64,000 bases of DNA from assembly GCF_015645095.1 (NCBI RefSeq), contig NZ_JADOTW010000010.1, forward strand, positions 1 to 64,000. Reading direction: 5' to 3'. Under the pieces are notes generated by a model. It did no database searches. It saw only the letters and a program-made list of their open reading frames with translations, and was not told the DNA's origin. A program made the position numbers and the translations under genes. Source of the DNA: Halomonas sp. 328 (lineage in GTDB: Bacteria; Pseudomonadota; Gammaproteobacteria; Pseudomonadales; Halomonadaceae). The stretch's first letter is position 1, and each line of letters starts with the position of its first letter. Positions 51,407 through 55,260 of this stretch are shown here, piece after piece.

Positions 51407-52040
51407 GTCGCCCTCCCTCGCCGAGGCGGATACGGCGCAACTCGCCCAAGGGCGTCAGGTCATGGTGGGTGGTGAGGATCACACTGCCTCCACGGCGGGC
51501 ATGGGCGAGCAGCCGCTGTTCCAGGGCCTCGACCCCCTGCTTGTCGATGGCGGTGAAGGGCTCGTCCAGGACCCAGAGGGCGCGCGGCGTCAGTTCCAGG
51601 CGCGCCAGGGCGACGCGACGCTGCTGCCCCGCCGAGAGCTGCCCCGCCGGCACGTCCTCGAACCCCATCAGACCGACCCGCTCCAGGACCGTCAGGCGCG
51701 TCGCCTCACTGCCGGCGTCACCGGCCAGGGCCTGGTACCAGGCGAGGTTCTCCAGGGGCGTCAGGGCCGCCTTGACCCCCGGCGCATGGCCGAGGTAGAG
51801 CAGATTGGTCAGGTAATGGTCACGCACCCGGGCCAGCGGCTGGTCACACCAGCGCAGCTCGCCGTCGAAGTCGTGCAACTGGCCGGAGAGGATCTTCAGC
51901 AGGGTGGTCTTGCCACTGCCGTTGGGCCCTTCGATACGCAGGATCTGGCCGCCTTCAACGTCGAAGTCCAGGTCACGAAACAGCTCGCGCCCGTCGCGTT
52001 CACAGCGTAACTGGCAGCCTTGCAGGCGGAAGCTCACCAC
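51393..52040 (-). CDS. ccmA: Heme exporter ATPase CcmA
   Basis: This 215-residue ABC ATPase has Walker A GPNGSGKTT (about 38-46), signature LSAGQQRR and Walker B LWVLDEPFTAID. First gene of the ccmABCDEFGHI operon, whose genes are all coupled or within 25 bp. GTG start at 52040, with a second GTG next to it and GGGAG upstream. The SOS box and the LexA-like gene lie upstream in the opposite direction. Confidence 0.94.
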   Translation of the reverse strand: MVSFRLQGCQLRCERDGRELFRDLDFDVEGGQILRIEGPNGSGKTTLLKILSGQLHDFDGELRWCDQPLARVRDHYLTNLLYLGHAPGVKAALTPLENLAWYQALAGDAGSEATRLTVLERVGLMGFEDVPAGQLSAGQQRRVALARLELTPRALWVLDEPFTAIDKQGVEALEQRLLAHARRGGSVILTTHHDLTPLGELRRIRLGEGGRHVIQ

Positions 52041-52184
52041 ACTCTCCCGGCGTCGATGGTCAGCCGCGCACTTTACATGGAAAGCCTTTCCCAGACCAGC
52101 ATGGGCCGTGCGTCAGCCGGTCGCAGCGCGACTCGTGCGAAGGTGGCGCTTGCCAGCTGGCCAGGCCTTGCTATGATTCAACTA

Positions 52185-52200
52185 CTGTAAATAGTTACAG
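52185..52200 (+). promoter_or_regulatory. SOS (LexA) box
   Basis: CTGTAAATAGTTACAG is a perfect CTGT-N8-ACAG LexA site, 46 bp before the start codon of the LexA-like gene. TTGCTA (52168-52173) with AATAGT (52190-52195) gives a plausible -35/-10 pair that the box overlaps. Repression by LexA and induction by DNA damage are inferred. Confidence 0.8.
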
Positions 52201-52246
52201 TGAACTGGTCTTCCGGCTTCACGCCGCCTCGCAAGGGAGATGGAGC

Positions 52247-52714
52247 ATGCAGTCTGTCGCCACCCACTACCTCTACCGCCGCCCCAACCTGCCGCTGGCC
52301 GATGCCTGGGAGCCCCTCGATGCCAGCGACCTCGTGGAGGTCCCGCTGCTCGGCCAGGTCGCCGCCGGCATGCCCATGGAGGCCTGCCACCAGGCCGGCG
52401 CCATTCACGTGCCCAGTCGCATGGTGCGTCGCAACACCTATGCCCTGCGGGTCCGCGGCGACTCGATGATCGACTGCAATATCCACGACGGCGACGTTAT
52501 CATCATCGAGCGCCAGGAGAGCGCCGAGAACGGCGAGACCGCCGTGGTGATGATCAACGACCAGGAGGTCACCTTGAAGAAGCTCTATATCGAGAAGCGT
52601 GGCGTGCGCCTGCAGCCCGCCAACGAGAGCATGGCCCCCATCTTCCTCGACAACGACGACGTCCAGGTCCTCGGCCTGGTGATGGGCGTGGTGCGCCAGG
52701 GCCTGGATGGATGA
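52247..52714 (+). CDS. LexA/UmuD-like S24 peptidase lacking a DNA-binding domain
   Basis: This 155-residue self-cleaving peptidase domain has the cleavage site Ala40-Gly41 in GQVAAGMP, catalytic Ser73 in GDSMID and Lys111 in EVTLKKLY, all as in LexA. The LexA winged HTH is missing; instead there are about 28 residues of unrelated sequence (MQSVATHYLYRRPNLPLADA...). UmuD has similar size but cleaves Cys-Gly and is encoded beside umuC, which is absent here. The promoter has a perfect SOS box. Its TGA overlaps the ATG of yigZ. Possible roles are a UmuD-like polymerase cofactor or a modulator of LexA. Confidence 0.8.
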   Translation: MQSVATHYLYRRPNLPLADAWEPLDASDLVEVPLLGQVAAGMPMEACHQAGAIHVPSRMVRRNTYALRVRGDSMIDCNIHDGDVIIIERQESAENGETAVVMINDQEVTLKKLYIEKRGVRLQPANESMAPIFLDNDDVQVLGLVMGVVRQGLDG

Positions 52715-53331
52715 GTTACCCGATTCCGGACCTGCCCGGGGACCAGTGGCTGGCCCATGAGCTGGAGGTGGAGAAGAGTCGTTTCCTCGCCTGGGTCTGC
52801 CATGCCCCCTCCCCCGCCGCTTTCGAGGCCCTGCTCGCCGAGGCACGCCGCCAGCACCCCAATGCCAGCCACCACTGCAGCGCCTTCAATGCCGGCCCAC
52901 CCGGCGAGCAGCAGGCCATCGGCTTCTCCGACGATGGGGAGCCCGGCGGCACCGCCGGCCGCCCCATGTACCAGGTGCTGGAGGGCAGCGGCCTGGGGCA
53001 GGTGGGCTGCGTGGTGACCCGTTACTTCGGCGGCACCAAGCTGGGCACCGGCGGCCTGGCCCGGGCCTATGCCCAGGCGGTGGCCCAGGCCCTGGAGGCC
53101 CTGCCCACCCGCCCTTTCACCCCCCGGGAGCCGCGTCGCCTGGCGGTGGCCTTCGCCGGCGAGGCGGAGGCCCGGCGCTGGCTGGAGGGCCGGGACGTGC
53201 CCATCGAGGCCGTCGACTATGGCGCCGAGGGGGTCATCCTCACCGTGGGCTGGCCCCAGGGCGAGCCCGTCGATATCACCCCCCTCAGCGCCCGCCTCAA
53301 GGGCGATGTGCGCCTGCTCGATAGCCCCTAG
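52711..53331 (+). CDS. yigZ: YigZ/IMPACT family protein
   Basis: This 206-residue protein has an N-terminal IMPACT (UPF0029) domain with EVEKSRFLAWVCHA (about 17-30), the GEPGGTAGRPMY motif and VTRYFGGTKLGTGGLARAY, then a C-terminal DUF1949 ferredoxin-like domain. The function in bacteria is unclear; the eukaryotic relative controls Gcn2. Its start overlaps the LexA-like gene (ATGA), so it should be SOS-induced with it. Confidence 0.92.
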   Translation: MSYPIPDLPGDQWLAHELEVEKSRFLAWVCHAPSPAAFEALLAEARRQHPNASHHCSAFNAGPPGEQQAIGFSDDGEPGGTAGRPMYQVLEGSGLGQVGCVVTRYFGGTKLGTGGLARAYAQAVAQALEALPTRPFTPREPRRLAVAFAGEAEARRWLEGRDVPIEAVDYGAEGVILTVGWPQGEPVDITPLSARLKGDVRLLDSP

Positions 53332-53660
53332 CCTACTCCTCCGAGCAAGAGGCGACGTATGGCGCCGACTAGCGCGCTGCAGCGGATAGCGGGGTTGGCT
53401 GACTCACTGGTGAGTTCACACGCGGCTTGCCTGGGGACAGACCGTCGCGGGGCGCTGTAACCCCCTCCCTGGGTGCTACTTTTGCCCTGCGTCGCTCTCG
53501 CATCCTGCTCCGTTTGCAGGACCGGTGCTGGCCATCCCTGGCCAGCCCGTTCGGAGCCGTGCTCCTCACCCCTGGCAAAAACCCCCGCTCCGTTCTGCCC
53601 CCAGCGCCGCTTACCTTTCTGGCCATCCCTGCCTCGGAACGGTGGCATTGCTACGTAAGC

Positions 53661-53841
53661 GCGGGGCTGGCTAGCGAAGCGACGTCGCCGGGACGCTGAC
53701 GTGGAGCGAGCGACTCGCGCGGGGACGACAGGGATGTCGTCCCCAGGACCGGCGAGAGGGACCTCGGTCCGGTCCGGCGCGTCAGTCGCGAGCGGAACGT
53801 CAGGGTTTCGTCCCGGAGAGGAGCGAGTCAGCCAGCCCCGC
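53661..53841 (+). repeat. 181-bp TIR element, copy 1
   Basis: This element is bounded by perfect terminal inverted repeats. The 12-bp core GCGGGGCTGGCT/AGCCAGCCCCGC extends to 16 bp with the flanking AAGC/GCTT (53657-53845). Inside are a perfect 10-bp hairpin GGGGACGACA/TGTCGTCCCC (53721-53744), GGACC/GGTCC, and a long-range pair CCGGGACG/CGTCCCGG (53688-53695/53809-53816). A second copy of equal length lies at 63756-63936 in the opposite orientation. It has no ORF, so it is a MITE-like or REP-like element or a structured RNA. Confidence 0.85.
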
Positions 53842-53884
53842 GCTTGGCGAAGCGAGTTAGCCGGCTCTCAGCCCCCCATAACGA

Positions 53885-53910
53885 CGATGGCGCCCCAAGG
53901 GGCGCCATCG
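53885..53910 (-). terminator. Hairpin after oadB
   Basis: CGATGGCGCCCC and its complement form a 12-bp stem around AA, 28 bp after the oadB stop. The T-tract is poor (TCGTCGTTATG), so efficiency is uncertain. Confidence 0.6.
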
Positions 53911-53937
53911 AAGCGTTGCTGCTACCACACTGCGGCC

Positions 53938-55260
53938 TTAGCCCAGGTACTTGATCATCACCCCGGCGGCCACCGCCGAGCCGATCACCCCGGCCACGTT
54001 GGGCCCCATGGCATGCATCAGCAGGAAGTTATGCGGGTTGGCCTCCAGGCCCACCTTGTTGGAGACTCGCGCCGCCATGGGCACCGCCGAGACCCCCGCC
54101 GAGCCGATCAACGGATTGATCGGCATCTTGCTGACCGCATTCAGCAGCTTGGCCATCAGGATGCCCGCCGCGGTACCGATGGCGAAGGCCACGATCCCCA
54201 GCCCCATGATGCCCAGGGTCTCCACCGCCAGGAACTCCTTGGCCACCAGCTTGGAGCCCACCGACAGCCCCAAGAAGATGGTGACAATATTGATCAGGGC
54301 GTTCTGGGCGGTATCCGAGAGCCGCTCCACCACGCCACACTCGCGCATCAGGTTACCGAAGCAGAACATCCCCAGCAGCGGCGCCGCATCCGGCAGGAAG
54401 AGCGCCACCAGGATCAGCACCACGACCGGGAAGACGATCTTCTCCAGCTTGGAGACCGGGCGCAGCTGGGTCATGGCGATGGCCCGCTCCTTCTCGCTGG
54501 TCAGGGCACGCATGATGGGGGGCTGGATCAGCGGCACCAAGGCCATGTAGGCGTAAGCCGCCACGGCGATGGCCCCCAACAGCTCCGGCGCCAGCACGCT
54601 CGACACATAGATCGAGGTCGGGCCATCGGCCCCGCCGATGATGCCGATGGCGGCGGCCTGGTTGAGGGAGAAATCCATCACCCCCAGGGCCGACAGCCCC
54701 ACGGCCCCCAGTACGGTGGCGAAGATACCGAACTGAGCCGCGGCCCCCAGGAAGAGGGTTCGCGGGTTGGCCAGCAGGGGACCGAAGTCGGTCATCGCCC
54801 CCACCCCCATGAAGATCAGCAGGGGGGCGATCCCGGAGGCGATGGCCACGCTATAGAAGGAGTAGAGCATGCCATTGCTATAGCCGGCATCCGCGGCCGC
54901 GCTGCTGGCGGCCCGCACCAGTTCTGGAGCGATACCGTCATGGGTCACCTCATAGAGGGTCTCGCGCCAGGCGGCCACCCCCGCCGCGGGATCCAGGCTG
55001 ACCCCCAGGGTCGCGGCGAGCTGCTGCAGCACCGCCGGCGGCCCTACCTCGATGGCATGCTGTAGCGCCGACAGCGCCAGCCCCGCCTCGGGGATATTGG
55101 CCAGGATACCGCCAAAACCGATGGGCACCAGCAGCAGCGGTTCGAACTTCTTGTGGATCGCCAGGTAGAGCAGCAACAGTCCGATGGCGATCATCACGAC
55201 CTGGCCCAGGCTCAGGTTATAGAGCCCCGAGCCATACCAGAGAGTCAGTAGCTTATCCAT
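53938..55260 (-). CDS. oadB: Oxaloacetate decarboxylase beta subunit (Na+ pump)
   Basis: This 440-residue integral membrane subunit uses decarboxylation of carboxybiotin to export Na+. Family landmarks include a Gly-rich [16 protein letters not shown] segment near residue 47, the [13 protein letters not shown] motif that holds the Na+-site Asp (near 218 by rough count), and [13 protein letters not shown]. It is the last gene of oadGAB. Such pumps are common in halophilic and marine bacteria. Confidence 0.94.

Follow-up and report, generated by a model that had tools for sequence, protein, structure and literature searches.

In Halomonas sp. 328, a small stand-alone protein of the S24 (LexA/UmuD-type) peptidase family is encoded behind a probable LexA operator and immediately ahead of yigZ, within the 64,000-nt stretch of DNA that was analysed as a whole (the window). 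By its sequence, the protein belongs to a third S24 clade, which is neither LexA nor UmuD. One genus, g10, has lost the catalytic serine of this protein and has kept its gene, its operator and purifying selection on its core. The reading we favour, at somewhat less than even confidence, is that of a UmuD-like SOS effector, the mature core of which acts on a universal partner, be it the RecA filament or the replisome.

A stand-alone S24 protein at a LexA-type operator

The features of the locus are listed in Table 1. Peptidase_S24 (residues 33-146) is the only Pfam domain of the 155-aa protein, and the Pfam scan detected no HTH or other DNA-binding domain in it. Its best solved relatives are LexA repressors (top match 3k2z, 1e-19), and in the alignments to them A40-G41 falls on the cleavage site of LexA, and S73 and K111 on its serine and its lysine, the roles of which they presumably share. 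Self-cleavage would be expected to remove the N-terminal arm, residues 1-40. A close relative, from Bisbaumannia pacifica of the Halomonadaceae (L049), is 99% identical. The predicted fold rests on homology to LexA; an AlphaFold2 model, built from an 18-row family alignment, had a mean pLDDT of 55 and was set aside.

Table 1. Features of the S24-yigZ locus, with positions in the window
Feature	Position	Strand	Basis or remark
Sigma-70-type promoter TTGCCA-16-TATGAT, TG before -10	52150..52177	+	Motif scan
Probable LexA operator (SOS box) CTGTAAATAGTTACAG	52185..52200	+	Motif, placement, conservation
Stand-alone S24 (LexA/UmuD-type) predicted autopeptidase, 155 aa	52247..52714	+	ORF and Pfam
N-terminal arm, residues 1-40	52247..52366	+	R11 and W21 invariant in 81 sequences
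Predicted scissile Ala40-Gly41	52364..52369	+	81/81 family loci including the window; aligned with LexA site
Predicted catalytic Ser73	52463..52465	+	81/81 family loci; lost in 38/38 g10 loci
Predicted catalytic Lys111	52577..52579	+	81/81 family loci
yigZ (UPF0029 / IMPACT family)	52711..53331	+	Start overlaps S24 stop (ATGA)

Identity to the genome's own LexA and UmuD is 34% and 33%, respectively. The NCBIfam models give the protein 70.8 bits for UmuD, below the cut-off of 110, and 115.5 bits for the lexA equivalog, above the cut-off of 110.95, with only the C-terminal part of the lexA model covered. As an HTH-less protein can exceed the lexA cut-off, annotation pipelines may label such proteins 'transcriptional repressor LexA'. 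The first-pass annotation had described a perfect CTGT-N8-ACAG box ahead of an HTH-less protein with A40-G41, S73 and K111, and the motif scan, Pfam and the alignments all bear this out. Its view that the protein is neither a normal LexA nor a UmuD likewise holds, given the missing HTH, the score on the UmuD model and the separate clade in the tree described below.

The promoter is the only sigma-70-type site in 52040-53940, where 0.1 would be expected, and CTGTAAATAGTTACAG starts 7 bases past its -10, probably lying over the transcription start of the S24 gene. By itself, the CTGT-N8-ACAG motif has no significance within the window and is no proof: CTGTAAATAGTTACAG is the only perfect occurrence, 0.58 are expected by chance, and at least one appeared in 43 of 100 shuffles. 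Rather, the box at this position is convincing because of its placement after the -10 and its conservation in family loci. Across the whole genome (3.87 Mb) the motif occurs 14 times, against 13 for a backward control, and five of these sites have at least five A/T in the spacer. With genes named by NCBIfam models, the five precede the S24 gene, a PA0069-type radical SAM gene, recN, umuD and one position without a recognised SOS gene. The boxes ahead of recN, umuD and the others therefore make it very probable that the LexA of Halomonas sp. 328 reads CTGT-N8-ACAG; its own lexA has no perfect box among the 14 sites.

A full lexA and umuC were sought in the genome, and both are present on contigs other than that of the S24 gene. 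LexA, complete with an N-terminal DNA-binding domain, is encoded next to dinB, and the umuDC pair has its own perfect box upstream of umuD. The lexA and dinB genes follow one another on the same strand, with 6 nt between them (L002:430-2139). No imuB was detected, the PF00817 search of the genome matching dinB and umuC only.

Conservation of the catalytic residues and the operator

Residues 40, 41, 73 and 111 read AGSK in all 81 family loci (80 named plus the window), in 6/6 further-genus loci and in 28/28 loci from the class sample, while the 14 loci of family f15 have CGSK in 12 cases and AGSK in two. Ala-Gly or Cys-Gly with the serine and lysine is found in 129 of 129 loci outside genus g10 (81 + 6 + 14 + 28).

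Conservation of the SOS box in relatives, which the first-pass annotation had put forward as a check, is only partial. Among the 80 family loci of sufficient length (79 relatives plus the window), 61 have a perfect box with at least four A/T in the spacer ahead of the gene; the 11 other half-site orderings give 0-5. Hence the mark of SOS regulon membership, a conserved LexA-type operator at the promoter, is found in this family, but is absent from 19 of the 80 loci, one of which (L056) does contain a perfect box, its spacer being richer in GC. Among the further-genus loci, the box is perfect in four, 7/8 in one and absent from one; all 14 f15 loci have a 7/8 box, CTGT-N8-CCAG. In the class set, three of 28 loci have a 7/8 box and 25 have none of 7/8 or better. 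SOS control therefore does not extend to the clade as a whole.

Ten genomes with a box-less S24 promoter (five g19, three g15, one g2 and one g4) have a box at recN, perfect in six and 7/8 in four. Hence the LexA of these genomes most likely still uses CTGT-N8-ACAG, and it is most likely the S24 gene whose operator has disappeared or never existed. As a control, recN is imperfect: two g20 and five g10 genomes combine a boxed S24 gene (8/8 or 7/8) with only a 7/8 site at recN, and two g8 genomes have only a doubtful 7/8 box there. A cttgctatgat stretch, like the -10 of the window, is present in five of the six box-less S24 promoters inspected.

A third clade of S24 proteins

An unrooted tree of 89 S24 domains, on only 144 columns, was built from 15 + 4 + 12 + 6 + 25 stand-alone, 24 LexA and three UmuD rows. 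A 100/99 branch of length 1.18 separates every stand-alone row from all the LexA and UmuD rows. The UmuD rows form a 100/99 clade of their own, placed with LexA; these rows are long, and with a long-branch warning their position among LexA is unsure.

The distribution of the clade was assessed in samples of genomes from the family, order and class. The catalytic form (E 1.1e-47 or better) is encoded by 140 of 201 family genomes, that of Halomonas sp. 328 counted in; genus g10 accounts for 49 more, and in the other 12, ten of them at least 90% complete, no match reaches that level. Matches above 150 bits in the order sample (390 genomes) were confined to the same family and f15. The class sample (369 genomes) contained relatives at 168-207 bits in 28 genomes from 15 other families, compared with 112 bits for the best match in a LexA-length frame; four of these 28 rows have one stop codon within the match. 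Outside the genomes sampled, 131 phage records match the protein, all at less than 60% identity, as do at least 5000 plasmid records, all below 60% identity among the matches listed. Of the best 20 of these plasmid matches, 19 are named LexA or UmuD and one is unannotated. In viral contigs, 58 stretches fitted a pattern and none was confirmed by tblastn.

Eight g3 genomes, G018, G043 and G082 lack the S24 gene and keep LexA-length S24 frames, so the gene can be lost alone. G024 (genus g24) is the sole genome of the 201 without any match to the S24 protein. This 99% complete genome has no S24-domain protein, hence no LexA, and no Y-family match, and appears to have lost the SOS system. Absence of the S24 gene coincides here with a seeming absence of that system. 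G024 is not unique in having no Y-family match, as this is also true of G085 and G093, both of which are incomplete.

In two genomes of family f148 (G813 and G697; loci L237 and L245), the S24 gene is divergent from a lexA-type gene, so classified by length and tree. The two intergenic regions look alike and contain no perfect CTGT-N8-ACAG, the sole 7/8 site (L237) falling inside the S24 coding part. Genes recurring near the S24 gene outside the family (in at least three of 25 neighbourhoods) gave no functional lead; by eye, they were named SenC/SCO-like, copper-chaperone-like, aminotransferase and PEP-synthase-like.

Loss of the catalytic serine in genus g10

Loss of catalytic residues in close relatives had been named in advance as counting against the proposed peptidase. 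The 81 family loci retain them, but Ser73 is gone from every one of 38 g10 loci, being replaced by R in 26, A in 10, H in one and D in one. The Ala-Gly pair is aligned as such in three of these loci and is unaligned or altered in 35, a cleavage site being scored as missing where the local profile alignment does not reach that segment; the lysine is retained in 32. The gene is nevertheless present in 59 of 61 sampled g10 genomes, and its box is perfect in 36 of the 38 loci and 7/8 in another. The exception, L270, has neither the serine nor a box. Furthermore, 31 of the 36 perfect-box g10 loci have an additional site scoring 7/8 or better, usually 32-33 nt from the first; the catalytic set has such a site in 3 of 61 loci.

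Purifying selection acts on the g10 core. Over the 89 ungapped codons around the serine, the median dN/dS is 0.067 (112 pairs with dS 0.1-1.2; upper quartile 0.137, highest 1.16), compared with 0.109 in the catalytic family set (2819 pairs); the corresponding values for yigZ are 0.084 and 0.175. Positions conserved in all four groups of loci include Y65-L67, N78, D81-D83, I103-N104, L134 and N136, together with the run L142, G143, V145 and G147 in the C-terminal region, which LexA and UmuD use for dimerisation. G36, G41, P43, P56 and S73 are among the positions that the other groups conserve and g10 does not. As the g10 gene stays boxed and under purifying selection, self-cleavage cannot be the only use of the S24 protein; hence the family in this genus points to a second job besides cutting. 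However, g10 is one lineage, and so perhaps represents one event; its second operator may have nothing to do with the loss of cleavage.

Coupling to yigZ

The downstream product contains the UPF0029 domain (117.6 bits, Pfam cut-off 27), and scores 146.7 bits on the narrower TIGR00257 model, below its cut-off of 167.95. The S24 stop and yigZ start overlap in 73 of 80 named family loci (TGATG in 68, ATGA in five); in five more the TGATG is present with the yigZ motif not found in frame, and in two yigZ lies downstream at a different spacing. By tblastn, yigZ is also found in 38/38 g10 and 5/6 further-genus loci. G022, of the same family, has a boxed S24 gene with no yigZ nearby. The same search did not detect yigZ in any of the class loci (20 neighbourhoods of 6.5-12 kb and 28 short loci) or f15 loci (four longer ones of 6.5-10.5 kb and 14 short ones) covered. 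Hence the S24 gene is more widespread than its coupling to yigZ. The overlap, which had been taken to place yigZ under SOS control, is therefore a regular feature within the family, but does not extend to the class and f15 loci examined.

Candidate functions of the S24 protein

The polymerases of the carriers bear on what the protein may act upon. Six carriers (G017, G028, G035, G066, G070 and G126) have a single Y-family match, DinB-like in score and length. Genus g38 of f15 contributes 11 carriers: in ten of them PF00817 yields a single weak match, located in a long ORF, and in the eleventh it yields nothing; the two long ORFs scanned match Pol IV models weakly, such that they may be called ImuB-like by length and weak match only. 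Of the 13 f15 genomes searched for the LexA DNA-binding domain, 10 gave a match. No relative of the DinB or UmuC of Halomonas sp. 328, or of the ImuB-like ORF, was found in 20 class neighbourhoods (209 kb) or four f15 neighbourhoods (38 kb). The first-pass annotation had suggested that the protein assists an error-prone polymerase encoded elsewhere, and this idea has lost its candidates, with some carriers having a DinB-like polymerase only and others neither a DinB-like nor a UmuC-like one. Therefore, although UmuD provides a model, and Halomonas sp. 328 itself has dinB and umuDC, we consider it improbable that the protein is an accessory subunit of one particular such polymerase. Rather, with no Y-family polymerase shared by every carrier, the partner is probably universal.

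The simplest reading would be that UmuD-type logic operates in another clade, through induced synthesis, self-cleavage and an active core. LexA would repress both the S24 gene and yigZ through the operator over their promoter, as the box and its conservation suggest. Following DNA damage, the S24 protein would build up, dock on the RecA filament and, to judge from its conserved residues, cut itself at Ala40-Gly41. The remaining 115-residue core, probably a dimer, would be the working form, with the RecA filament, LexA, or the replicative polymerase and clamp as its likely partner. In g10, where self-cleavage appears to be lost and a second operator is usual, control at the promoter may have replaced control by cleavage. 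The role of UmuD as precedent extends to the N-terminal arms, which bear sites for partner proteins, according to excerpts of PMC5342242.

A role for the mature core is one way to read the loss of catalysis, and a protein that merely occupies RecA filaments fits too. Such a decoy or brake would be cleared by its own cleavage, and in g10 would have become a non-cleavable, permanent competitor; we regard this as a possible but unlikely account. It has a precedent in mCI, a piece of lambda CI that lacks the DNA-binding domain and can no longer cleave itself. According to excerpts of PMC6363387, mCI attaches to RecA filaments and, depending on its level, postpones SOS induction in E. coli or all but prevents it. 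Genus g10 would be the natural equivalent, with the catalytic serine lost and the core kept, and RecA and LexA would require no special polymerase partner. However, the Ala-Gly segment that is unaligned or altered in most g10 loci may itself matter for RecA docking, and the partial conservation of the N-terminal arm, with R11 and W21 invariant in the catalytic set, is not obviously needed by a decoy. The more general proposal, a little more doubtful again, is that these proteins are widespread natural RecA-filament decoys: SOS-induced mimics of the LexA domain without DNA binding, which would compete with LexA and so set how high the SOS response rises and how long it lasts. In most lineages autocleavage would make them self-clearing; in one genus they would have become permanent, non-cleavable competitors.

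Mixed dimers with LexA or UmuD, altering their cleavage or DNA binding, along the lines of a suggestion in the first-pass annotation, would fit the retention of the C-terminal region even in g10, and are consistent with the divergent lexA-type gene in the two f148 genomes; yet low identity to both proteins and a separate clade make this rather improbable. Alternatively, the S24 gene might serve mainly as a leader for yigZ, with the operator kept to place yigZ under SOS control. This would accommodate the widespread overlap within the family, as well as the loss of the serine in g10 while box and yigZ stayed, but is very improbable, as the g10 core is under purifying selection, and boxed S24 genes without a nearby yigZ exist in f15 and G022.

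Relation to known systems

The protein resembles UmuD in its S24 domain, Ser-Lys dyad and short N-terminal arm without an HTH, and the umuD of the same genome is also boxed. However, it falls outside the UmuD clade and below the UmuD model cut-off, is not encoded beside umuC, and its gene is also present in genomes in which no UmuC-like match was found. Its arm is 40 residues long, versus 24 in UmuD (excerpts of PMC5342242). With the C-terminal domain of LexA it shares an S24 domain with an Ala-Gly site, serine and lysine, and its nearest solved relatives; it differs in having no LexA DNA-binding domain, in forming a separate clade and in coexisting with a full LexA elsewhere in the genome. 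UmuDAb of Acinetobacter is similarly an S24 autopeptidase of the DNA-damage response other than LexA. The likeness to mCI lies in an S24 domain without a DNA-binding domain and with catalysis removed, as in g10; but mCI is engineered and monomeric (excerpts of PMC6363387), whereas the S24 protein is natural and its RecA binding only putative. PA0922 of Pseudomonas, a LexA regulon gene divergent from dinB (excerpts of PMC8944484 and PMC1250226), is a possible counterpart.

The S24-type SOS proteins in the literature covered are either repressors (LexA, CI, UmuDAb and others) or, in the case of UmuD, a subunit of Pol V. Titles and abstract openings of open-licence papers on Halomonas SOS/LexA, S24, UmuD, LexA-like proteins, PA0922 and yigZ contained no such family. 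A third, stand-alone S24 clade, found in 17 families of the class, would add an unstudied layer to the control of DNA damage. It may have escaped notice, given that at least the present protein exceeds the cut-off of the NCBIfam lexA model. The combination of g10, with its serine lost, core selected and box kept, and the box-less lineages, with their serine kept, constitutes a set of natural experiments separating self-cleavage, SOS control and the core's own function.

These same lineages place the poorly understood yigZ in a DNA-damage context. The downstream gene is a member of UPF0029 like others of the YigZ/IMPACT group, but here has an SOS-type operator and overlaps an S24 gene. Titles and abstract openings of open-licence papers on yigZ gave no mechanism; a biofilm transposon screen counts the gene in its abstract (PMC8743551). 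Beyond yigZ, positions 53389-53845 of the window contain GC-rich inverted repeats, perhaps a small repeat element, with one pair of 16 nt, perfect and 157 nt apart, and another of 20 nt at 90%, 413 nt apart.
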